Under the pieces are notes generated by a model. It was not told where the DNA came from. It saw nothing but the letters and a program-made list of their open reading frames with translations, and made no database searches. Positions 277 through 16,099 of a DNA stretch of 34,203 nt are shown piece after piece; within the stretch, counting starts at the first letter, position 1; every line of letters begins with the position of its first letter. Origin of the DNA: Pseudomonadota bacterium (GTDB taxonomy: Bacteria > Pseudomonadota > Gammaproteobacteria > Steroidobacterales > Steroidobacteraceae). Position numbers and translations under genes: made by a program. The stretch is from positions 1 through 34,203 of the forward strand of contig CAUJHX010000028.1 of assembly GCA_963204795.1 (NCBI GenBank), written 5' to 3'.

Positions 277-1038
277 CTATTTCTCGAATCGCGCCTCTCG
301 ATGCCACCGCAGGTAAGTCGGATGCGGCCGCAATTCCCGCCTCTCCGGAACACGGATCTTCCTGCCCTCCTGAACCAGGGGCACCAGCTCCGCAGAAACT
401 CCTTTCTTCGCGACCAGCAGCCGGAACGAATCGTCGACTGAAATCAGCCCACGGTCGAACATCCAGTGCACCGTCGCGGTCAGGGCGAGGCCGTTGCGCA
501 CCGTGTCTGGCCCGTGCGCCTCAACGGCCTGGATGTGGGCGGCCTGCACTTCCGGTCTTCCTCCACCATTGAGCAGACAAAGCCCGGTCACGGCGCAGGT
601 ATTCCCGTAGGCCTCGCGGACATGCCGCCGAAACGCTTCGTCGCGGAAGGGGCGGTTGACGACCTGCGCTATCAACGGTCTTTCCACGGACTCGGGCGCT
701 GGATCGCTGGCGCAGTCCGCGATTTCCCAAGGTTGCAGCTCCCGCTCGAAGCCCTGCGCCACGATGTAGTCGAACTCCAGGTAGTCGGACAGATAAGCGT
801 AATAGTGGTCGGGTTGCTGTTCGTCAGGTTCGATGCGTACTACCCGCGCCATCGCGAAATAGGACTGGCGACCTGTGCTGCTGGAAACACCTTCGGTCCG
901 TCGAGGCTCGTAATAGAGTACCCAGTCACCTACCGCCTGCTCGACGACCCGCAAATAGGTTTTCGGAAAGTGGTATCGGATTTCGGGCTGGTCGTCGTAC
1001 TCGGAACTGGCAGAGTAGGTGAAGACTGCGTTCGGCAT
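277..1038 (-). CDS. HNH endonuclease, putative restriction-type nuclease
   Basis: The 253-residue protein has a C-terminal HNH fold of the HNH_2 type: C148 in a CAVTG turn, the first His in AAHI (H168), then N182 in RNGLALTATVHWMFDRG with H191. This layout is found in many predicted restriction endonucleases. The N-terminal half (about 1-125) has aromatic-rich beta segments such as GDWVLYYEP and SYFAMARVVRI, resembling a target-recognition domain of the PUA/EVE kind; that part is less sure. It lies 9 nt downstream of a small acidic ORF and is probably co-transcribed with it. A role in defence against foreign DNA is inferred. No methyltransferase is in the window, so a modification-dependent or abortive nuclease is possible. 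Confidence 0.8.
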   Translation of the reverse strand: MPNAVFTYSASSEYDDQPEIRYHFPKTYLRVVEQAVGDWVLYYEPRRTEGVSSSTGRQSYFAMARVVRIEPDEQQPDHYYAYLSDYLEFDYIVAQGFERELQPWEIADCASDPAPESVERPLIAQVVNRPFRDEAFRRHVREAYGNTCAVTGLCLLNGGGRPEVQAAHIQAVEAHGPDTVRNGLALTATVHWMFDRGLISVDDSFRLLVAKKGVSAELVPLVQEGRKIRVPERRELRPHPTYLRWHREARFEK

Positions 1039-1047
1039 GTCGTGCGC

Positions 1048-1263
1048 TTACCTCAAGAGGGCAACTGGGCCTTTTGCCCCGACTTGTTCCATCAACGTCG
1101 CAAGTTTCCATCCGCACAGACACATGAACGCCTGGTCCAGCAATTCCTTGCCCGCTTCATCGGCCGAGAGGTAGACGTTCGCCAATCTCCCGGATTGATC
1201 GTAGTCGTCATTCGCTATCGCATCGAATATTTGGGAAACGAGCTGACTATATTGGTCGCTCAT
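1048..1263 (-). CDS. Small acidic hypothetical protein ahead of the HNH nuclease
   Basis: This is a 71-residue protein starting MSDQYSQLV. An upstream in-frame ATG at 1317 would add 18 residues of low-complexity look, so the start at 1263, preceded by GAGGG, is preferred. It is acidic in the first half (DAIANDDYD) and predicted helical, with no membrane segment or recognised motif. The stop is 9 nt before the HNH start, which suggests one transcript. Small acidic proteins next to nucleases are sometimes inhibitors or specificity partners, but nothing in the sequence proves this. I do not recognise the family. Confidence 0.55.
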   Translation of the reverse strand: MSDQYSQLVSQIFDAIANDDYDQSGRLANVYLSADEAGKELLDQAFMCLCGWKLATLMEQVGAKGPVALLR

Positions 1264-1383
1264 AGGCGCCACCCTCGCGCGAAGATCTCCAGAAACAGGA
1301 TTTGCCCCTGCCGGCAAATCGTACCCCGTGGTGGGTGCAATAATGGCTCCATTCTTGGAGCGCCTCCAGGTCGGAGTTTCCGG

Positions 1384-3231
1384 CTACCCGAAAGCTGCGA
1401 GGCACGCGCGACAGATCCCGACTGTCCGGTCGACCGTCGCACGCGCCTCGGCGCCCCATTGCAGGTCCTGCGGAACAACGAGTGCATCCAGCGCCCGCGG
1501 CATGCGTTCGAGTACATCATCGATGATGGCTTGGGCATCACCGGCACGCAGGCCGGAGAGCGTCGCCAGCCCCACGAAGTCAGAGCGGCGCAAGCGCTCG
1601 TCCTTGCCCCCCAGCTTCAACGCCATGCGGTCATGGAGCAGACCCGGGAATACGCGCGTGGTAAGTGTGTCGTAGACCGGCGCGAGGCCCACCGTCCGGA
1701 ACGCGCGGTCGCCGCTGTACCCGGTCTTCAGGAGCGCGATGTTCTTCAGGTGCATGTCGCCATCGGCTATCAGCCATGCAAACAAGACGCGGCGCAGCAG
1801 CGTGAGCAGATCCTCGTCGGGAGAAGTCGACAACGCGCGTACTGCCCTCGCCACGCGCTCGATGGTTCCCGTGTACTTCTCGTGAGGCTCGAGGTCCAGT
1901 ACCGAGCACATGTCCTCCATCGCCAGCCATCGGGGATCGCCGGCCCGTTCACGAATGTCGAAACGCTCCACGACCAATGCCGGCGACATGCCGTCCGGCA
2001 TGCGCAGGAGAACGGCATCCGGCACGGTGAGACCGACACCGCGAGCCAGTGTCAGCCCGATCCACTCGACCAGCGGCAGCGACTCGAATCCGCTTGTTCC
2101 GGCGGGCTTGAGGATGTGCGTGAATGGCAACTCGACGCTCGGAGAAAGCCTTCCCTCCGCATCAAGGTGCATGGGAGCCTTGATCTGCACGCCGGAGAGG
2201 CGGGGCGTCTCCGCACTTTCAAACAGCGCGGCGAGCCGGTGCTCGAAATCCCCCTCGATGGTGCTTCTTCCCGGGCCCGCGTAGGTTCCCGTGAAGAGGC
2301 CGTCCGCGCTGAATCGCGCCAGCCTGTTCACGAGAAGATCGGCGGGAAGCCGCGCCAGTTCCTCCGGCGTTGCCGCGACAGTAATGCTCGACATGTAGCG
2401 CCTGCCGGAACGCAGGAGCGCGCGCTCGTTGCTGCCGTCCTTCAGCACGGATTTCAGCCAGCCTTCCGGCAGCAACGACACGATGAAGGGCGGCAGCTTT
2501 CCGGGCACCGTCTGGCGCACGATCTGCGGCAGCGCCGGTTCCTCCTGCTTCGCCGACCAGCGCCACTCGAAACCGTCGTGCGCCAGCATGCCGATGGTGC
2601 GCCCATGCCACGCCACGTGGAGATCGAACGCCGCCTCGTTCCTTGCGGTATGCCCCGTAGGTCGATGCAACAGGAACTTCTCGGCCCCCTCGCCTTCCCG
2701 ATACCACCCGTTCTCGCGCGCGAGCGCCCACACGGCATCGCTGGCCGCCTTGGGATTGCCGTACTCCTCGACGAGACGTGCCGCTATCGCCTCGCGCATG
2801 TCCGTATCGATCGAGGCGGCGTGTTCACTGCGCAGGCGGAAGGCTTCGAGGAACCGCTGGCGAAGGGCCGAGACGGAAACACCAAATTCCCCCATGCTGT
2901 CCGCCACGATGGCATTGGCCACCGACGGGTGCGCTGGCGCCTTGTTCTGGACGATCTCCAGGGAGCGCATCCGCGTGCGCTGGACACGCCGCCCGGACAG
3001 GTACAGGCGGCCATCGCGGTTGGGCCCGAGCAGAACGGCGCTCGCGCCGGACAGGTATGCCCTGGGATACAGGTAGCGGGCAATCCGGACGGCGTGCATC
3101 AGGACCGTCCGGTCGATGTCGTCATCCGCATCTACATAGACGCCCCGCATGAGCTGGACGAGCTTCCCTGTCCCCGCCAGGTAGTGACTGCGGGTCTTGT
3201 CGATCGTCTCACCGACCAGCCGGAGGGGCAT
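1384..3231 (-). CDS. AbiEi-like antitoxin domain fused to HipA-like kinase
   Basis: The 615-residue protein has two parts. Residues about 1-95 resemble the AbiEi/type IV antitoxin winged-helix region, with LMRGVYVD followed by a helix and AYLSGASAVLLG. Residues about 198-590 resemble HipA: an N-terminal subdomain (198-285), a loop LSGVQIKAP (345-353) like the HipA phosphoserine loop, an ATP-site Lys in HILKPAG (K375), the catalytic loop D490-G-D-M-H-L-K-N497, and metal-binding D521 in APVYDTL. HipA kinases phosphorylate translation-related proteins such as GltX and cause growth arrest. No separate hipB-like gene is adjacent, so the fused N-terminal domain may be the built-in antitoxin and repressor. 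The start codon directly follows a 33-bp palindrome. The kinase motifs are clear; the N-terminal assignment is moderate. Confidence 0.82.
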   Translation of the reverse strand: MPLRLVGETIDKTRSHYLAGTGKLVQLMRGVYVDADDDIDRTVLMHAVRIARYLYPRAYLSGASAVLLGPNRDGRLYLSGRRVQRTRMRSLEIVQNKAPAHPSVANAIVADSMGEFGVSVSALRQRFLEAFRLRSEHAASIDTDMREAIAARLVEEYGNPKAASDAVWALARENGWYREGEGAEKFLLHRPTGHTARNEAAFDLHVAWHGRTIGMLAHDGFEWRWSAKQEEPALPQIVRQTVPGKLPPFIVSLLPEGWLKSVLKDGSNERALLRSGRRYMSSITVAATPEELARLPADLLVNRLARFSADGLFTGTYAGPGRSTIEGDFEHRLAALFESAETPRLSGVQIKAPMHLDAEGRLSPSVELPFTHILKPAGTSGFESLPLVEWIGLTLARGVGLTVPDAVLLRMPDGMSPALVVERFDIRERAGDPRWLAMEDMCSVLDLEPHEKYTGTIERVARAVRALSTSPDEDLLTLLRRVLFAWLIADGDMHLKNIALLKTGYSGDRAFRTVGLAPVYDTLTTRVFPGLLHDRMALKLGGKDERLRRSDFVGLATLSGLRAGDAQAIIDDVLERMPRALDALVVPQDLQWGAEARATVDRTVGICRACLAAFG

Positions 3232-7393: not shown

Positions 7394-8710
7394 ATGCGGG
7401 TAACCAGGGTCTTTTCAGCCATCATTGCCCCCCTCGCGGCGCTGCCGCTCGCCTCCTTCGCGCAGGATGCGCCGTTGCCCGTGCCCGACAAGGCCGACAC
7501 CGTCTGGATGATGGTCTCCACGCTGCTCGTGATCCTGATGGCGGCGCCGGGTCTCGCGCTCTTCTACGGCGGCATGGTGCGCGCGAAGAACATGCTGTCC
7601 GTGCTGATGCAGGTATTCGTCGTCTTCTCACTGATCGTCGTGCTCTGGACGGTCTATGGCTACAGCCTCGCGTTCACGGGTACCGGACAGTGGATCGGCG
7701 GCATCGAGCGCCTCTTCCTCGCGGGAATCACGCCGGCTTCCACGGCCGCAACCTTCACCGAGGGCGTGGTGATTCCCGAGTTCGTGTTCGTCGCCTTCCA
7801 GGCGACTTTCGCCGCGATCACGGCCTGCCTCATCGTCGGCTCGTTCGCCGAGCGCGTGAAATTCTCTGCCGTGCTGATCTTCATGGTGGTCTGGTTCACC
7901 TTCTGCTATCTGCCGATCGCGCGCATGGTCTGGTACGGCGAGGGCTTCATGTTCAAGCGGGGCGCACTCGATTTTGCGGGCGGCACCGTGGTGCATATCA
8001 ATGCAGGCGTCGCAGGTCTCGTCGGCGCGCTGGTCGTCGGCAAGCGCATCGGCTACGGCACCGTCGCAATGGCGCCGCACAACCTGCCGATGGTGATGAT
8101 CGGCGCTTCGCTCCTGTGGGTCGGCTGGTTCGGCTTCAATGTCGGCTCGAACCTCGAGTCGAGTCCACTCACGGGCCTCGTGTTCATCAACACGTTCGTG
8201 GCCACGGCCGCGGCGGTCATGGCGTGGACGATCGGCGAGTGGATCCATCGCGGCCAGCCCACCATGCTCGGCGCCGCGTCGGGCGCAGTCGCCGGACTCG
8301 TCGCCATCACACCTTCCTGCGGCTTCGTGGGCGTGGGCGGCGCGCTCGTTCTCGGTCTGCTCGCCGGTTTCGCGTGCCTCTGGGCTGTAGCCAGCTTCAA
8401 GGTGTGGGCGGGCTACGACGACTCGCTCGATGTGTTCGGCGTGCACGCGGTGGGCGGCATCGTCGGCGCGATCCTGACGGGTGTACTCGTATCACCCCGT
8501 CTCGGCGGCACGGGGCTCGCTGACTATCACATGGGCCTCCAGGTGTGGACGCAGACGATGGGTGTGCTGATCACGGTTGGCTGGAGCGCGCTCGTCGCGT
8601 TCATCGGCTACAAGATCGCCGACCTCACCGTGGGCCTGCGCGTCAGCGAAGAGCAGGAACGGGAAGGCCTCGACACGACTTACCACGGGGAGAGGGCGTA
8701 CCAGAACTAG
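7394..8710 (+). CDS. amtB: Ammonium transporter AmtB
   Basis: The 438-residue inner-membrane protein has a cleavable signal peptide ending near SFAQ (about 24) and eleven transmembrane helices. Family landmarks are present: GLALFYGGMVRAKN, D193 in DFAGGTVVHINAG, the twin pore histidines H201 and H351, and the hydrophobic pore segment WFGFNVGS. It forms trimers that conduct ammonium or ammonia. The ATG at 7394, preceded by GGGAG, gives the signal peptide; the open frame to 7286 is leader sequence. No glnK gene is adjacent, although glnK-amtB linkage is usual. A sigma-54 promoter with an NtrC-like site lies upstream. The stop interlocks with that of the convergent Crp/Fnr gene (CTAG, 8707-8710). 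Confidence 0.95.
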   Translation: MRVTRVFSAIIAPLAALPLASFAQDAPLPVPDKADTVWMMVSTLLVILMAAPGLALFYGGMVRAKNMLSVLMQVFVVFSLIVVLWTVYGYSLAFTGTGQWIGGIERLFLAGITPASTAATFTEGVVIPEFVFVAFQATFAAITACLIVGSFAERVKFSAVLIFMVVWFTFCYLPIARMVWYGEGFMFKRGALDFAGGTVVHINAGVAGLVGALVVGKRIGYGTVAMAPHNLPMVMIGASLLWVGWFGFNVGSNLESSPLTGLVFINTFVATAAAVMAWTIGEWIHRGQPTMLGAASGAVAGLVAITPSCGFVGVGGALVLGLLAGFACLWAVASFKVWAGYDDSLDVFGVHAVGGIVGAILTGVLVSPRLGGTGLADYHMGLQVWTQTMGVLITVGWSALVAFIGYKIADLTVGLRVSEEQEREGLDTTYHGERAYQN

Positions 8711-9420
8711 CCGTCGCCTGCGATGCGTCGCAGCCCGGACGCATCGCAGATCGTCAGCTGTCCCCGGCAGGTCGCGAGCAAGCCGGCCTTCTGCCATGCC
8801 GCCAGCGCGCGACTCGCCGTGTACAGGGTCGTTCCCGAGAATTCGGCGACGTCCCGGCGCCGCAGCGGCAAGCCGATCGTGTGGCCGCCCGCTGTTTCAC
8901 GGCCCGCCTGTGCAGCGAGCCTCAGCACGGCCAGTGCAAGACGCTGTTCGGCGCGCAGCGTCGTCAGTTCCCGCACGCGCTCCTGCAAGTGACCGAGCCT
9001 GGTGCCAAGCACGGCAATCAGATTGACCGCGATGCGCGGATGGCGATCGATGAGACGCAGCAGGTCCGCTTCGCTCCAGCTCAGCACGCTCGACGCTTGC
9101 GCTGCGATCGCATCGGCCGGCAAGCGATGATCGGTGAAGAGTGGCACGGTACCGAACATCTGGCCGGGGCCGATGAAGCGCAGGATGGCCTGGCGGCCGT
9201 TGCTGCCTGTCTGCACGATGCGAGCGCAGCCCGTGCTGATCGCCCAGGCGCGCGCCGCAGGGCCGCCCTGCGCGAAGATGACATCGCCCTTCGCGACACG
9301 CTGGACCCGCATCCTGCAGCACACCTCTTCCAGCGCATGGGCAGGTAGTGCCCGGAACAGGTCCAGCTGTCCGATGGATTCCATCGGTTGCCGTTTGTGC
9401 TGGAGCAAATCGAAGGGCAT
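8707..9420 (-). CDS. Crp/Fnr family transcriptional regulator
   Basis: The 237-residue protein has an N-terminal cyclic-nucleotide-binding-type beta barrel (about 15-125, including KGDVIFAQGGPAARAW), a long dimerisation helix (about 130-160) and a C-terminal winged helix with LRRRDVAEFSGTTLYTASRAL as helix-turn-helix. The N-terminal Cys cluster of Fnr is absent, so it is not an Fnr-type oxygen sensor. The layout resembles Dnr/NnrR-type regulators that respond to nitric oxide through heme, which would suit the nearby nor genes, but no residue proves it. The start at 9420 is preceded by ACGGAG; the frame is open to 9462. It is divergent from the TonB receptor, sharing a 53-bp region with a Fur-like box. 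Confidence 0.85.
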   Translation of the reverse strand: MPFDLLQHKRQPMESIGQLDLFRALPAHALEEVCCRMRVQRVAKGDVIFAQGGPAARAWAISTGCARIVQTGSNGRQAILRFIGPGQMFGTVPLFTDHRLPADAIAAQASSVLSWSEADLLRLIDRHPRIAVNLIAVLGTRLGHLQERVRELTTLRAEQRLALAVLRLAAQAGRETAGGHTIGLPLRRRDVAEFSGTTLYTASRALAAWQKAGLLATCRGQLTICDASGLRRIAGDG

Positions 9421-9434
9421 GGCTCCGTAGTATA

Positions 9435-9449
9435 TGAGAATGACTCTCA
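9435..9449. promoter_or_regulatory. Fur-like box between regulator and TonB receptor
   Basis: TGAGAATGACTCTCA has inverted TGAGA/TCTCA arms, and its core GAGAAT-G-ACTCTC matches 9 of 12 positions of the 6-1-6 Fur core. It is 24 nt upstream of the TonB receptor start and 14 nt from the divergent regulator start, so a bound repressor could shut both genes. Confidence 0.55.
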
Positions 9450-9473
9450 ATCGCAATTGCAACGAGCCCCACT

Positions 9474-11675
9474 ATGGTCTTTCCTCACGCAACCCGGCTG
9501 TTGATCCTGACCGTGACCCTGGCGCCCGCCGCCGTCCTCTCCCAGTCGGCAACGCCGGGTGCGGTCCTCGAAGAAGTCACCGTGACGGCATCACGCAGCC
9601 CAGCCATGCAGCGGCTCGATGCTGCAGCCGGCGGAACCGCAATCGTCGCCTCGCGAGACTTGCCGGCCACGACAAATCTCACTCTCTCGCGTGCGCTCGC
9701 GGGCGTGCCCGGTGTGGTTGTCCAGGATTTCTTTGGTGGCAACGACCAGCCGCGCGTCCAGATCCGTGGTTCGGGCCTGCAGCAGAACCCGGTCGAACGC
9801 GGCGTGCTGATGCTGCGCAACGGCCTGCCGATCAATCGCGCGGACGGCTCTTATGTCGTCGGCTTCGCCAATCCGGGTGCGGCGGGGGCGGTCGAAGTCT
9901 ACCGGGGTTACATGGCCAACCGGCTCGGCGCGACAGTGCTGGGCGGTGCACTCAACCTGATCTCGCCCACAGGACACGATGCGCCGGGCGTCGAGTTCGG
10001 AGCTGGCAGCGGGAGTTTCGGGCAGCGTGACCTGTCCGCGCGGTACGGCCATGAGCAGGCACGTTTCGACACGCTGCTGCACGGAAGTTTCAACGACCGG
10101 GAGGGCTATCGCGCCTACAACGCGTCGCGACACGCGAGCGTCGATGGCAATCTCGGCATGCGGGTCTCCGACACCTTGACGGTGCGCTTCTTCGCGAGCT
10201 TCGCGGATCTTGCCTTCGACGTCGCGGGGCCCCTGACCAGGGATGCGCTCGAGCGCAATCCGCGCAGGGTCTTTACCGGCCCGACCGTCACGCCGATGGG
10301 CGCGATCAATCCTGGCCCCAATGTCGTACGCGATCGCCCGTACCGGGAGGCCACGCAGTGGCAGGCGGGAGCACGCGCGACGCAGACCCTTGGCGCGCAC
10401 ATCGTCGACCTCGCGGTGGGCCACGCACTCACGGATGATCAATTCAATTTTCCGGTTTCCGCGGGCCTGCGCGTAACGGAAGGCGATGACACCACGGCGG
10501 TGGTGCGCTACGCGTTCAGACCGGACGTCGACCGTGCGCTGCCCTTCTTCGAGGCAACGGCGCAGTTTGTGACCGGCACCGCCGATCGGGAGTACTACCT
10601 GAACCTGGCGGGTCAGCGCGGGTCACCCTTTGGCCGCAATAGTCTCTCAGCAGAAACGATTACACTGCATGCCGGGTTCAATATCCCGATAGGAAGCCAG
10701 TTTACGCTCTCGCCCTCGGCATCCTGGGCGCGCGCCGTCCGCGACAATCACGATCGCTTTGGCCTGCCCATGCGACCGACAGCCGCATTCAGCCCGGTCA
10801 ATCCTGCCATTGCGCTGCCACCGGGCGCAGTGCCTGCGGTCGACAACAGTTATGCACGCAACTATGAAGCCCTGAGCCCCGCGGTCGGGCTCGCCTGGCA
10901 GCCGTTCGACGATCACACCCTGTTCGTCGCGTACAGCCGCAGCTTCGAACCACCGACCCATGACGATTTGCTGGCCACGGTCGGTGGCACGCCCAACAGC
11001 AGCGCCGGTCGCCCCAATCCCGCCGACCCCACTCGTCCGGCTGCTGCCTTCGTGGCACCCGCACTCAAGGCCCAGCGTGCCACGACGATCGAGGCGGGCT
11101 GGCGTGGCCGCATCGCGAGCCTTTCCTGGGACGCGGTCGTGTATCGTTCGTCGATCGACGACGAACTGCTCAGCCTGCGCGACGCCGCCGGCGTCCCGCT
11201 CGGTGCCGCCAACGCGCCTCACACGCGCCACCTCGGTGTCGAAGCCGGTGTCGGTGCGCAGCTCTCGCAGACCGTGAGCGGCCGGATCGTCTACAGCTAT
11301 CAGGATTTCCGGTTCCGGCGTGACCCGATGCGTGGCGACAATCATCTGGCCGGCGCCCCCCGTCACTGGGTGCACGGGACACTTGCCTGGCAGCCGACGA
11401 TGCGCTGGAACGGCGAGGCCGCGGTACGCTGGAGCCCGGCGAAGATACCGGTCGACAACCTGAACACGCTCTTCAACGACCCCTATGCAACGCTCGACTT
11501 GCGGGTCGAGCGCCGCTTCGGCGAGTCCCTGACCGTGTTCGCCGAAATGAGCAATGTGTTCGACGAAACCTGGGCATCCTCGACACTGATCGTCGATCAG
11601 GCACGTCCCGATCAGGCGGTATTCCTGCCCGGTGACGGCCGCGCGCTCGGTTTCGGCGTCCGCTTGCAACTCTAG
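9474..11675 (+). CDS. TonB-dependent outer-membrane receptor
   Basis: The 733-residue protein has a signal peptide (about 1-23), a TonB box EEVTVTAS just after it, a plug domain (about 45-170, with LSRALAGVPGVVVQDF, RVQIRGSGLQ and RLGATVLGGALNLISPTG) and a 22-strand barrel of alternating aromatic strands. Near the end is the family's TLDLRVERRFGESLTVFAEMSNVFDE segment. It would import a scarce nutrient using TonB energy. The Fur-like box argues for a ferric siderophore or another metal complex; copper, as with NosA/OprC in denitrifiers, is an alternative given the nor genes downstream. It is followed by a periplasmic cupin and a membrane protein on the same strand, probably one operon. Confidence 0.93.
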   Translation: MVFPHATRLLILTVTLAPAAVLSQSATPGAVLEEVTVTASRSPAMQRLDAAAGGTAIVASRDLPATTNLTLSRALAGVPGVVVQDFFGGNDQPRVQIRGSGLQQNPVERGVLMLRNGLPINRADGSYVVGFANPGAAGAVEVYRGYMANRLGATVLGGALNLISPTGHDAPGVEFGAGSGSFGQRDLSARYGHEQARFDTLLHGSFNDREGYRAYNASRHASVDGNLGMRVSDTLTVRFFASFADLAFDVAGPLTRDALERNPRRVFTGPTVTPMGAINPGPNVVRDRPYREATQWQAGARATQTLGAHIVDLAVGHALTDDQFNFPVSAGLRVTEGDDTTAVVRYAFRPDVDRALPFFEATAQFVTGTADREYYLNLAGQRGSPFGRNSLSAETITLHAGFNIPIGSQFTLSPSASWARAVRDNHDRFGLPMRPTAAFSPVNPAIALPPGAVPAVDNSYARNYEALSPAVGLAWQPFDDHTLFVAYSRSFEPPTHDDLLATVGGTPNSSAGRPNPADPTRPAAAFVAPALKAQRATTIEAGWRGRIASLSWDAVVYRSSIDDELLSLRDAAGVPLGAANAPHTRHLGVEAGVGAQLSQTVSGRIVYSYQDFRFRRDPMRGDNHLAGAPRHWVHGTLAWQPTMRWNGEAAVRWSPAKIPVDNLNTLFNDPYATLDLRVERRFGESLTVFAEMSNVFDETWASSTLIVDQARPDQAVFLPGDGRALGFGVRLQL

Positions 11676-11699
11676 CTTCCGCCAACGAAAGGAATCTGC

Positions 11700-12155
11700 A
11701 TGAAAAACCGTGCCGTGCGGCTCGCCGCTCTCGCCACTTTCGCCTCTCTGGCTTTGCCGGGACTTGCGACGGCCGACTCGACCCGGCTCGAACTCGACAA
11801 GCTGCGCTACGTGACCGTCTACGACGTAGCGCAGCAAGCGGTCCTCGCAGTCGACACGGCCGGGCGCCCACTCACCGCCCTCCTGCGTATCGCCAAGGGG
11901 CAGTTCGTGCCACCGCACGGCGCCGGGGGTCCGCTGCGCGTGCTGACGATCGTGTCGGGTACGTTGTCCTGGGGTGACGGTCACACCGTCGATGAAGCGG
12001 CGGAGCGCAGCTTCGGCCCCGGCAGCGTGATCGTCCTGCCCGCAGGCGGCGGTGAGCACTGGGCGGCGGCGCGCCACGACGATGTGCTGCTGCAGATTGT
12101 GGTCCTGCGCGAGGGCAAGCTGGCGCCGGAAGCGGCTGCGCAGCTCACACGCTGA
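11700..12155 (+). CDS. Periplasmic cupin-domain protein
   Basis: The 151-residue protein has a clear signal peptide (about 1-26, AxA-type end at LATADS). A single cupin barrel includes GQFVPPHGAGGPLRVLTIVSGTLSWGDG, FGPGSVIVLPAGGGEHWAA and a final strand DDVLLQIVVL. The histidines in PPHG and GGEHW could bind a metal, although the first motif is shorter than in the classic cupin. AAGGAA precedes the start. It lies 24 nt after the TonB receptor stop, and its TGA overlaps the next gene's ATG (TGATG), so it is coupled to both. Handling of the imported ligand in the periplasm is an inference from context. Confidence 0.8.
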   Translation: MKNRAVRLAALATFASLALPGLATADSTRLELDKLRYVTVYDVAQQAVLAVDTAGRPLTALLRIAKGQFVPPHGAGGPLRVLTIVSGTLSWGDGHTVDEAAERSFGPGSVIVLPAGGGEHWAAARHDDVLLQIVVLREGKLAPEAAAQLTR

Positions 12156-12625
12156 TGGATACCGCGCTCGCCCGCGCCCTGCACGTACTCGGGGTCGTCA
12201 TCTGGATCGGCGGCGTCTCCATGGCGACTACCGTGGCACTCCCCGCGATCCGGCGCGGCGCCCTGGGCGCGGATCGCCTGCAGGCCTTCCAGACGTTCGA
12301 GGGCCGTTTCGTCTGGCAGGCGCGTACTGCCGTCATCGTCGTCGGCCTCACCGGCTTCTACATGATCGAGCGCTTCGGCATCTGGTGGCGCTTCGGCGAC
12401 GGCCACTACTGGTGGATGCACGCGATGGTTGGCGTGTGGACATTGTTCATGCTGTTGCTCTTCGTGGGCGAGCCGTTCGTCCTGCACCGCTACTTCCCGC
12501 GCTGGGCGCAGCGATACCCCGAACGCGCTTTCGCCGTGCTCCATTACGTGCACGTGGTGCTGCTCGTGCTGAGCACGGTGACGGTACTGGGAGCCACGGC
12601 GGGCAGCCACGGCTGGCTGCCGTAA
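12155..12625 (+). CDS. Four-helix membrane protein, CopD/DUF2269-like
   Basis: The 156-residue protein has four transmembrane segments (about 7-30, 62-80, 86-110 and 125-150). The opening LARALHVLGVVIWIGGV is typical of CopD and DUF2269-like membrane proteins. Histidines lie within the helices (HVLG, WWMHAM, HYVHVV) and could ligate a b-type heme or copper; this is conjecture. The start codon overlaps the cupin stop. Together with the TonB receptor and cupin it forms a probable uptake cassette reaching from the outer to the inner membrane. It is convergent with nsrR, 2 nt away. Confidence 0.75.
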   Translation: MDTALARALHVLGVVIWIGGVSMATTVALPAIRRGALGADRLQAFQTFEGRFVWQARTAVIVVGLTGFYMIERFGIWWRFGDGHYWWMHAMVGVWTLFMLLLFVGEPFVLHRYFPRWAQRYPERAFAVLHYVHVVLLVLSTVTVLGATAGSHGWLP

Positions 12626-12627
12626 GC

Positions 12628-13068
12628 TCATCGCTTGCGGGCAGGGACCCTTGTTCCGGTCCCCGATCCTGGAAAGGCGCAGTCGGCGACGGAACTGCGG
12701 TCGAGGTCGGCAATGAACGCTTCGCTTGCCTGCGCAAGGCGTGACTTGAGCCGGCAACCAGGAGTCAGGAGGCAGTTTCCGCCATCGCTGCGGAAACATT
12801 CGACGAGCGCGTAGCGCTGCTCGAGGTAGCGCACCACTTCGCCGAGTCCGATCTTGTCCGGAGCGCGCGCGAGCCGCATGCCCCCGCCCGCCCCGCGTTG
12901 CGTCGTCACGAAGCCACCGCGCGCAAGATCCTGCACGACCTTCGCGAGATGATTGTAGGGAATGTGGAATTCCTCCGCGATGCGGAAAGTCGTCAAGGAC
13001 TCGTCGGGCGCGGCGGCAAGTCGCATCAGAACCCGTAATCCGTAGTCGGTGAAGGCGGCAAGTCGCAT
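12628..13068 (-). CDS. nsrR: NsrR-type nitric-oxide-sensing Rrf2 repressor
   Basis: The 146-residue Rrf2-family protein begins MRLAAFTDYGLRVLMRLA, the standard N-terminus, followed by a winged helix (FRIAEEFHIPYNHLAKVVQDL) and GGFVTTQRGAGGGMRLA. Three cysteines (C91, C99, C105) in an EC-x7-C-x5-C pattern match the Fe-S ligands of NsrR. NsrR binds DNA with its cluster and releases it when NO reacts. It is divergent from the nor operon, with a palindromic site in between, so it most likely represses norCB and itself. The C-terminal tail past residue 125 is Arg/Pro-rich and variable. IscR is unlikely given the Cys spacing and context. Confidence 0.88.
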   Translation of the reverse strand: MRLAAFTDYGLRVLMRLAAAPDESLTTFRIAEEFHIPYNHLAKVVQDLARGGFVTTQRGAGGGMRLARAPDKIGLGEVVRYLEQRYALVECFRSDGGNCLLTPGCRLKSRLAQASEAFIADLDRSSVADCAFPGSGTGTRVPARKR

Positions 13069-13194: not shown

Positions 13195-13470
13195 ATGTCT
13201 CGGGAACGCATCATCCGCATGGGAGTCGCGATCGTTGCGAGCGCGGTAAGCCTGGCGCTGTCCTGGCCCTACTGGCGGGACTTCGAGTACTGGCCGGAAT
13301 CGCGCGCCATGTGGCTCGCGTACTTCGCCCTGGGGTTTGTGCTCGCCGTCTATGTCTTCTACGCTTTTCTCGGCAGGCTCGGCACGCTGTTCCTGCATGA
13401 CGCGCTCGAGCGCGCGCAGCGGTTGCAGGGCGCGGCGACGGGCGATTCGGCTGAGGAGCACAAGCCATGA
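13195..13470 (+). CDS. Small two-helix membrane protein leading the nor operon
   Basis: The 91-residue protein has two transmembrane segments (about 9-26 and 40-60) joined by a short WRDFEYWPESRAMW loop, and a charged cytoplasmic tail. GGGAGGG precedes the ATG. Its stop overlaps the norC start (ATGA at 13467-13470), so it is translated together with NorC and NorB and probably belongs to the reductase, either as a small subunit or an assembly factor. I do not recognise a named family. The gene is too tightly coupled to be incidental. Confidence 0.75.
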   Translation: MSRERIIRMGVAIVASAVSLALSWPYWRDFEYWPESRAMWLAYFALGFVLAVYVFYAFLGRLGTLFLHDALERAQRLQGAATGDSAEEHKP

Positions 13471-14423
13471 GCTGCGCTCCGGGAGAACCCTGCGAGGAGG
13501 GCGTGAAGCGACGCCGCGCGCTGATCGTGCTCGGCATCATGGGCGCGCTCTTCATCGCGCTGTCGGCGGCTTCCTTCCTCGATTCACGCAACCAGGTGGT
13601 GCCCGCCACCGTCAGCTATGCCGGTTACGACGCCATTGAAGGCAAACGCGTCTTCCAGGCCTGGAACTGCATGGGCTGTCACACGATCGTCGGCAATGGC
13701 GCCTACTTCGGTCCCGACCTCACGAAACTCTACGGCAAGGTCGGACCCGCGTGGATGGAGGCATTCCTGCCCTCTGCCGGGGCCTGGCCAACGAGCGGCG
13801 CCGTGCAGCTGCAGCTGCAGAATGCCGCCGTCGCCGCCGAAGCCGGTGTCGATTCGATCGACGCCTATCTCGCGAAGTATCCGGCCGCAGCCGAGCGCAT
13901 CACACGCCGCGGCGCGCACGCGACCCTGATGCCGAACCTGCCGCTCTCCCGCGAGGAAATCGGACACCTGATCGCGTTCCTGAAATACACCTCGAGCATG
14001 AACACCGAGGGCTGGCCGCCGAAGCCGCGTGTCGATGGCCTCGCCTTCGCGCAGGCGGCGCCCACATCCGCATCACCGCAGCCGGCACCCATCGCGGCGC
14101 AGTCGGCCGAGCCCGCATCGGAGGCCGCGCGCGGTGCAGCAGTCGCCCGTGACACCGGCTGCACAGCGTGTCACGCGAGCAGTACGCAGCGACTCGTCGG
14201 CCCCGGCTGGGGTGGCCTGTATGGCACCGAGGTGGCATTGGCAGACGGCTCGAAAGCACCGGCAGACGACGCCTACCTGACCGAGTCGATCGTCGCACCC
14301 GACGCGAAGATCGTCGCAGGTTTCGCGCCGCACATGATGCCCGCGTACGGCACGATGCTCGACGAGGGCGAGATCGCAGCGATCGTCGCGTACATCCGCA
14401 GCCTCGGGGGAGAGCACCCATGA
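13467..14423 (+). CDS. norC: NorC-type cytochrome c subunit with a second fused c-heme domain
   Basis: The 318-residue protein is about twice the usual NorC length. A membrane anchor (about 17-37) is followed by the NorC-like domain: C68-M-G-C71-H72, then GAYFGPDL, Met155 in LMPNLPLS, and FLKYTSSMNTEGWPP. An insert of about 30 residues (about 110-150) separates heme motif and Met. An Ala/Pro linker (about 193-220) leads to a second cytochrome c domain with C232-T-A-C235-H236, VGPGWGGLYG and Met291 in MMPAYG, resembling the C-terminal cytochrome of caa3-oxidase subunit II. The extra heme could take electrons directly from bc1 or a soluble carrier. GAGGAG precedes the ATG. The start and stop each overlap a neighbour by ATGA, giving strict coupling. 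Confidence 0.88.
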   Translation: MSCAPGEPCEEGVKRRRALIVLGIMGALFIALSAASFLDSRNQVVPATVSYAGYDAIEGKRVFQAWNCMGCHTIVGNGAYFGPDLTKLYGKVGPAWMEAFLPSAGAWPTSGAVQLQLQNAAVAAEAGVDSIDAYLAKYPAAAERITRRGAHATLMPNLPLSREEIGHLIAFLKYTSSMNTEGWPPKPRVDGLAFAQAAPTSASPQPAPIAAQSAEPASEAARGAAVARDTGCTACHASSTQRLVGPGWGGLYGTEVALADGSKAPADDAYLTESIVAPDAKIVAGFAPHMMPAYGTMLDEGEIAAIVAYIRSLGGEHP

Positions 14424-16099
14424 TTCGCATCGAGTATCAGACCCAGCGCCTGAGCCTGCGCTTCTTCATGCTCATGCTCGTGCTGTTCTTCTTCCAGGCG
14501 GGATTCGGCCTGCTGCTGACCGCCCAGCACATCGACCCCTCGCTGCTCGCGGGCACGCTGAACTTCAACATCGTGCGCGCCGAGCACACCAATCTCGGCA
14601 TCCTGTGGGTACTCTGCGGCTTCATCGGCGCGATCCTCTACGTGGGGCCGCTGCTGTCGAAGCGCGAGCTCGCCGCCCCGGCGCTGATCAAGTTCCTCTT
14701 CTACGCCGTAATCGCGGTGGTTGTCTGGAACGTCGTGGCGCAACTCTATGCGCAGCAGGGTCTCGCCCTGTGGTACATGGGCCAGCCGCTGCTGCAGGAA
14801 GGCCTCGAGTACCTCGAGGGCGGGCGCATCGTGGACATCGTGATCCTGATCGGCTTTGCGATCCTGTGCTACGTCGTCCTGCGCACCTTCCCGAGGGTCA
14901 AGGACTGGAACGAGATCCACTGGGGTCTCGGCCTCGGGGTGATCGCGCTGACGTTTGTGTGGATCTTCGGCATGTTCTTCGTCGCGCGACTCGACCTGCA
15001 GGAATACTTCCGCTGGTACGTCGTCCATTACTGGGTCGAGGGCGTGTGGGAAGTGATCCACATCTCGCTCGTCGGCTTCTTTCTCGTGCTGATGTTCAAG
15101 GCCGACGTGAAGTCGGTCGGCTTCGCCGTGTTCTGGGGCATTGCACTCGTATGGCTCTCGGGGCTGCTCGGCAATGCGCACCACTACTTCTGGATCGGCA
15201 CACCCGAGTTCTGGCAGTTCTGGGGTTCGCTCTTCAGCGCACTCGAGCCGCTGCCGCTGATCTTCTGTTTCTGGCACATCTATCTCGACGCCCACCAGGA
15301 TGGCAAGCCGGTGGCGAACATGCCGGCCTTCTCGTTCCTGCTGGGTTCGGTGGTGCTCGAGCAGGTGGGCGCGGGCATTCTCGGCTTCACGATGACGTTT
15401 GCGCTTACCAACGTGTGGTCACACGGCACCTGGGTGACGCTGAGCCATGCCCACCTTGCGCTCTTCGGCACCTTCGGGATGCTCGGCCTCGCGGCCGCCT
15501 ATTACACCGTACCGCAGATGCGTGACCTTGCCGGATTCGATCAGCGCCCGGGCCGACTCGCATTCTGGCTCGTATTCACGGGCATGCTGGGGCTCGGTTT
15601 CGCCTTCGCAATCGGCGGCACCGTGCAGGTGTTCGTCTATCGCACGCTCGGCCTCGACTGGTTCGGCGGCGACGTGGCACCGGCCATGCAGGTCGCGAAA
15701 CTGCTGGTGCCGGTCTTCGGCCTCGTGTTCATGGTCGGTGTGTGCCTGCTGGTCTATGACCTGCTGACGCTCGGCATGCGTGCCCGCGCGTCCGACGAGA
15801 CTGCGCCTGCGGTGGCGCCTTCCGGGTGGCGCCGCCCGCTGAGTGGCTGGGAGACCGGGCTCTGGCTGCTCGCCATGTGGGTATTCGGCGCGATCATCAC
15901 GCTCGGTCTCCTGAGCTTCAATCTTCCCACCGTGCGGGAAGGCAGCAGGCTGTTCCCCTATCTGATGGCGGGGATCGGCTATCCGGGCCTGCTGCTGACG
16001 ACATTGCTCTTCGTCGCGCGCTTCCTGCGATCACTGGATGCGCGCGGGCAGGCTGCCACGGCGGCGCCCGGTGTCTTGCTCGGCCACGCCCTGCCGTGA
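14420..16099 (+). CDS. norB: Nitric oxide reductase catalytic subunit NorB, extended form
   Basis: The 559-residue inner-membrane enzyme reduces 2 NO to N2O. All cNOR landmarks are present at a constant offset of 4 from P. stutzeri numbering: low-spin heme ligands H56 and H345, heme b3 ligand H343, FeB ligands H203, H254 and H255, the FeB-site glutamate E207 in HYWVEGVWE, and E276. I count 14 hydrophobic helices. The last two (about 465-490 and 510-535) lie beyond the usual 12-helix NorB of about 470 residues. It starts with ATG overlapping the norC stop. The norQ, norD and norE maturation genes are not in this window. Confidence 0.93.
   Translation: MIRIEYQTQRLSLRFFMLMLVLFFFQAGFGLLLTAQHIDPSLLAGTLNFNIVRAEHTNLGILWVLCGFIGAILYVGPLLSKRELAAPALIKFLFYAVIAVVVWNVVAQLYAQQGLALWYMGQPLLQEGLEYLEGGRIVDIVILIGFAILCYVVLRTFPRVKDWNEIHWGLGLGVIALTFVWIFGMFFVARLDLQEYFRWYVVHYWVEGVWEVIHISLVGFFLVLMFKADVKSVGFAVFWGIALVWLSGLLGNAHHYFWIGTPEFWQFWGSLFSALEPLPLIFCFWHIYLDAHQDGKPVANMPAFSFLLGSVVLEQVGAGILGFTMTFALTNVWSHGTWVTLSHAHLALFGTFGMLGLAAAYYTVPQMRDLAGFDQRPGRLAFWLVFTGMLGLGFAFAIGGTVQVFVYRTLGLDWFGGDVAPAMQVAKLLVPVFGLVFMVGVCLLVYDLLTLGMRARASDETAPAVAPSGWRRPLSGWETGLWLLAMWVFGAIITLGLLSFNLPTVREGSRLFPYLMAGIGYPGLLLTTLLFVARFLRSLDARGQAATAAPGVLLGHALP

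Follow-up and report, generated by a model that had tools for sequence, protein, structure and literature searches.

The window, a stretch of 34,203 nucleotides from the genome of a member of the Steroidobacteraceae (contig CAUJHX010000028.1), contains the genes norC and norB of an NO reductase of the cNOR kind. They follow the gene of a small membrane protein and a divergently oriented regulator gene (Table 1). The end of norC overlaps the start of norB in the tetranucleotide ATGA. norC encodes two cytochrome c domains in one reading frame, whose position and frame had been read correctly from the sequence alone.

Table 1. Features of the nor locus in the window and of related features in other genomes (L, locus handles).
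Feature	Position	Strand	Basis
Divergent Rrf2/NsrR-like regulator, three Cys	12628..13068	-	Pfam Rrf2, E=6.7e-32
Candidate operator palindrome, TTGGTATTTACAATACTAA	13081..13099	.	Lies between regulator and nor unit
91-aa conserved 2-TM protein, overlaps norC start	13195..13470	+	Beside norC at all clade loci
norC, di-heme NorC subunit	13467..14423	+	318 aa, single intact ORF; 52 distinct loci
NorC N-terminal membrane helix, residues 11-38	13497..13580	+	Helix in AlphaFold2 model
NorC cytochrome domain 1, residues 46-186	13602..14024	+	3o0r_C and 4xyd_B matches
Heme c1 motif CMGCH, C68-H72	13668..13682	+	Invariant in 44 homologs
Domain 1 insert, ~residues 92-122, conserved FLPSAGxWPT	13740..13832	+	His-Met spacing, conservation
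Met155, presumed heme c1 axial ligand	13929..13931	+	44/44; aligns with MPQF of 3o0r_C
Ala/Pro-rich flexible linker	14025..14117	+	pLDDT <50 at residues 182-213; length varies among homologs
Cytochrome c domain 2, caa3 (CoxB C-terminal) type by comparison, residues 218-314	14118..14408	+	1w2l, CoxB matches, tree
Heme c2 motif CTACH, C232-H236	14160..14174	+	Invariant in 44 homologs
Met291, presumed heme c2 axial ligand	14337..14339	+	43/44 homologs
norB, catalytic subunit, 559 aa	14420..16099	+	4xyd_A E=1.2e-60, 3o0r_B E=1.1e-52; ligands; fold
NorB C-terminal extension, predicted helices 476-501 and 511-546	15782..16057	+	Length comparison, model
Second type of di-heme NorC, in norCBQD operons	L137 2866-3735; L142 3501-4373; L107 ~620-1486		
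Tethered NirK with C-terminal cytochrome c	L145, L147, L149-L161, L177-L179		

In the NorC protein, an N-terminal helix of 28 residues precedes the NorC domain, and a linker connects this domain to a second cytochrome c domain. Residues 29-186 match the NorC subunits of Pseudomonas aeruginosa (3o0r_C) and Roseobacter denitrificans (4xyd_B). The 44 aligned homologs share C68, C71, H72, M155, C232, C235 and H236 without exception. M291 is present in 43 of them, all but L054, which is out of frame near its end, past the second CXXCH. The complete second domain with CTACH and a Met ligand, as described in the sequence-only reading, is therefore confirmed. Domain 1 of the aligned homologs also keeps the stretch GNGAYFxPDL, with an invariant Tyr80; this is the part of NorC that docks on NorB in solved cNOR structures. 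The AlphaFold2 model of NorC (pLDDT 78) includes no heme and renders the domain 1 heme loop (68-83) poorly. At the very N-terminus, residues 1-9 (window 13467-13493) read MSCxxGxPC and precede the membrane helix; C3 is kept in 41 of the 44 homologs and C9 in 36.

The distance between the heme-binding His and the Met ligand of domain 1 is 83 in nearly every member of the clade to which this NorC belongs, whereas Thermus-type NorC has 51-52 and the classical proteins 37-50 (a few misread values set aside). Judged by this spacing, the insert of 31 residues, put at 30 residues in the sequence-only reading, is real. The linker measures 32-57 residues in the 44 homologs; its identity is 29%, against 57-69% for the two cytochrome domains, and 66% of its composition is Ala, Pro, Thr, Ser, Gly and Gln. 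The range of lengths, the low identity and the composition fit a flexible tether.

For domain 2 (220-311), the best PDB match by sequence is 1w2l (E=3.5e-19), the cytochrome domain of the Rhodothermus marinus caa3 oxidase. It is also the sole Foldseek match of the NorC model under E=0.001, with a TM score of 0.92 over the target, an rmsd of 1.3 Å and 43% identity. Among annotated plasmid proteins, the nearest matches come from CoxB of caa3-like oxidases, at 49-51% identity, and the two best other matches within the class are CoxB proteins with CuA domains (L098, L099). In the domain 2 tree, the domains of the clade group with the CoxB domains and apart from the single-heme NorC domains; the alignment is short (110 columns), and the caa3 lineage that acted as donor is beyond its resolution. 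By sequence and predicted fold, domain 2 is thus of the caa3 type, in agreement with the "caa3-like cytochrome" proposed earlier. Both CoxB and the di-heme NorC bear this 1w2l-type cytochrome at the C-terminus of the electron-entry subunit. CoxB of caa3 oxidases, on the contrary, has a CuA cupredoxin domain, while a Pfam search found no PF00116 in the di-heme NorC, whose partner is NorB. The CoxB of the aa3 oxidase encoded in the window's genome is without such a C-terminal cytochrome domain. The net charge of domain 2 is negative in most clade members.

NorB has the features of a cNOR catalytic subunit of the heme-copper superfamily, with three FeB histidines, the glutamate and the heme ligands, and it is adjoined by a separate membrane-anchored NorC carrying c-heme. 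The ligands H56, H203, E207, H254, H255, E276, H335 and H345 are invariant in 39 homologs. The best PDB matches are 4xyd and 3o0r, and cNOR structures are the top fold matches of the model. NorB is just 29-36% identical to other cNORs. Complete NorB proteins of the clade count 554-588 aa, compared with ~440-505 aa in the other matches; the extension forms two helices in the model and is absent from other cNORs.

The architecture is found well beyond the window. A scan of genome contigs gave 49 loci and related genomes yielded further ones, making 52 distinct loci together with the window. Both CXXCH motifs are present in 51 of them; in the exception (L053) the gene runs into the end of its contig. 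The order 91-aa protein, norC, norB holds at all clade loci as far as the contigs reach, and the NorC homologs share 50-75% identity over their whole length. A frameshift, a misassembly or a chimeric ORF joining norC to a neighbouring cytochrome gene, the first objection foreseen in the sequence-only reading, is practically excluded by these loci, which come from independent assemblies including isolates and one complete genome (L021). The hosts are Gamma-, Beta- and Alphaproteobacteria (Steroidobacteraceae, Lysobacteraceae, Rhodanobacteraceae, Alcaligenaceae, Comamonadaceae and Mesorhizobium among them). The architecture also appears in MAGs of five further phyla (by label, Kiritimatiellae, Verrucomicrobiota, Phycisphaerales, Gemmatimonadaceae and Bacteroidetes), some of which may be binning errors.

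Within a 113-sequence NorB tree, the 48 members fall into a single deep clade (SH-aLRT 100), distinct from the classical cNORs; the Thermus-type NorB proteins form a separate clade (SH-aLRT 99-100). On this phylogeny, the di-heme NorC marks a distinct cNOR clade that extends across several bacterial phyla. Hosts are mixed within the clade: for example, Rhodanobacter stands with a Burkholderiaceae MAG, and Mesorhizobium with a member of the Steroidobacteraceae, which suggests horizontal transfer. A NorB of the clade kind occurs in just two of 398 genomes of the phylum: that of the window and a second one, whose NorB is 73% identical. After these, the best match drops to 36%.

A cNOR is described as possessing one heme-containing electron shuttle subunit (PMC8756737). 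The classical NorCB of P. aeruginosa (3o0r) and R. denitrificans (4xyd) shares with the clade the NorB ligands, the order norC-norB, the membrane anchor and the heme c1 domain with GxGAYFxP. However, classical NorC has one heme and neither the insert nor domain 2, classical NorB lacks the C-terminal extension, and norQD is usually adjacent. At the clade loci, NorC has two CXXCH motifs and norQ and norD do not stand beside it; no NorQ match was found beside any clade locus, compared with about thirty classical loci that have one, and a query used without a positive control found no NorQ in the window's genome. Thermus NorCBH is a heterotrimer (PMC5748679). Like the clade, the Thermus type has no norQ nearby, an operon that includes a small membrane protein, and an Rrf2/NsrR regulator; its NorC is the nearest plasmid match to domain 1 (34%). 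It differs in its single heme, its shorter spacing and its separate NorB clade. The sNOR, gNOR and eNOR types are defined by a cupredoxin-type second subunit (PMC8756737); the second subunit of the clade carries c-hemes instead.

Outside the clade, 52 of the 55 NorC proteins read have one heme. The three others, from Aquabacterium olei, Eleftheria terrae (both on plasmids) and genome G395 (L107, chromosomal), also carry a second C-terminal cytochrome c domain. This domain is of another cytochrome subtype; the insert is missing (spacing 45), NorB is short and classical, norQD is present, and the NorB proteins are placed next to the classical cNORs in the tree. The two types of di-heme NorC are probably separate fusions, a view favoured by the differences in NorB tree position, domain 2 subtype, insert and norQ. 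Constraining both di-heme groups together by NorB was not rejected in the AU test (p 0.17).

The family of the 91-aa protein upstream of norC has the conserved core WPYWRDFxYWPES. No Pfam or NCBIfam family was found for it; a Pfam match to EI24 is below the cut-off. Kinship with NorH is not detectable (hhalign probability between the families, 1.2%), and NorH of Thermus is encoded after norB, unlike the 91-aa protein. The latter may be a third subunit or an assembly factor, perhaps replacing NorQD. The regulator has its best NCBIfam match with the NsrR model (108 bits, under the cut-off of 182). Sites resembling the candidate operator, slightly diverged, were recognized by visual comparison in L007, L014, L015, L018, L023 and L029, and the strict pattern has no occurrence in other loci. 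The nor genes are probably under NO-responsive control by this Rrf2/NsrR-like regulator. In the window, genes for a Crp/Fnr regulator, a TonB receptor, a cupin-like secreted protein and a 4-TM protein (8707-12625) precede the Rrf2 gene, in the same order as in L007, L014 and L015.

The natural reading of a caa3-type cytochrome fused to NorC, with a canonical cNOR-type NorB adjacent, is a built-in electron relay. We consider it likely that the enzyme is a cNOR whose NorC bears its own second cytochrome, relaying donor electrons to NorB. Electrons from a periplasmic donor (the bc1 complex, a mobile cytochrome or a cupredoxin) would enter at heme c2 in the tethered caa3-type domain and pass to heme c1 of domain 1, which sits docked on NorB, then over heme b to heme b3/FeB, where two NO would be converted to N2O. 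The flexible linker would let domain 2 shuttle between the donor and heme c1. The loading with heme and the direction and order of these transfers are inferred from the domain arrangement. A cytochrome c1 gene is present in the window's genome, together with aa3 and cbb3-type oxidases. Contig C227 of this genome (L090, L093, L096) has two heme-copper subunit I-like genes close together, along with genes for an SCO protein and a short CuA subunit (~187 aa); this unusual locus may encode an oxidase or a NOR.

The sequence-only reading had proposed a built-in electron entry, possibly bypassing soluble cytochromes. The entry is supported as likely by the fusion beside a canonical NorB; the bypass is conjectural. 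The small membrane protein upstream, the NorB extension, the missing norQD and the tethered-cytochrome NirK of relatives go beyond what that reading had noticed. There is about an even chance that domain 2 is a docking and storage relay for which a soluble cytochrome c or a cupredoxin is still needed, the tether raising the local concentration or widening the choice of donors. In caa3 oxidases, the same C-terminal domain can still be reduced by soluble cytochrome c, HiPIP or complex III, and the cytochrome c1 and the two oxidases of the window's genome make soluble cytochromes likely to be present. Nothing decisive speaks against this alternative, which departs from the built-in relay in the last step only. 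A much more distant alternative is another substrate or product on a NorB-like core, such as O2 reduction or NO dismutation. The low identity to other cNORs and the extra helices would fit it. Against it, every cNOR ligand is conserved without exception, the FeB glutamate E207 included; cNOR structures are best by both sequence and fold; and the regulator is of the NsrR kind. This alternative is thus very improbable.

A further alternative concerns the partner enzyme. NirK with a tethered cytochrome c has been noted as rare in Proteobacteria (PMC8756737). Here, NirK was called over the TIGR02376 cut-off, and the best NirK of each genome was read for CXXCH. NirK is present in 19 of 20 genomes with a NOR of the clade, and in 15 the best one ends in a cytochrome c domain with CXXCH; three genus relatives of the window add three tethered NirK, for a total of 18 out of 22. 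Of the genomes with other cNORs, 13 have NirK, none of them fused to a cytochrome (Fisher p 1.6e-6, uncorrected for shared ancestry). The tethered NirK likewise has an electron donor fused to a denitrification enzyme, although it is a different enzyme, found in the relatives' genomes. This association is what speaks for an integrated periplasmic pair, in which the clade NOR and the tethered NirK would use a shared membrane-near electron source or be in contact, keeping free NO low. Besides the missing correction for ancestry, the best NirK of two Mesorhizobium, of CGII-64 and of Luteimonas granuli is without CXXCH, and the window's own MAG (92% complete) has neither a NirK nor a NirS match. 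Such a pair is therefore possible but rather doubtful. Equally tentative is the wider view of a horizontally spread cNOR class, composed of the 91-aa membrane subunit, di-heme NorC and extended NorB and matured without NorQD, that would be evolutionarily coupled to tethered NirK, so that the enzymes producing and removing NO would both be connected directly to the respiratory chain.

In existing descriptions, cNORs depend on a separate electron carrier. The literature searched yielded no account of a di-heme NorC; its coverage of NOR diversity and NorH was incomplete, and a prior description is possible. The second objection foreseen in the sequence-only reading, that many such NorC proteins are already described, holds for the sequence databases, where they are numerous, but not for the literature found. 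No NCBIfam model naming the clade NorC above its cut-off was found, so annotation pipelines may miss the di-heme NorC. With norQD absent beside it, the clade would join Thermus as a second system for studying FeB insertion in the absence of this chaperone. As the clade occurs in cultivable bacteria (Rhodanobacter, Luteimonas, Lysobacter and Mesorhizobium denitrificans), it allows a direct test of whether tethered donors limit NO leakage or change N2O output.
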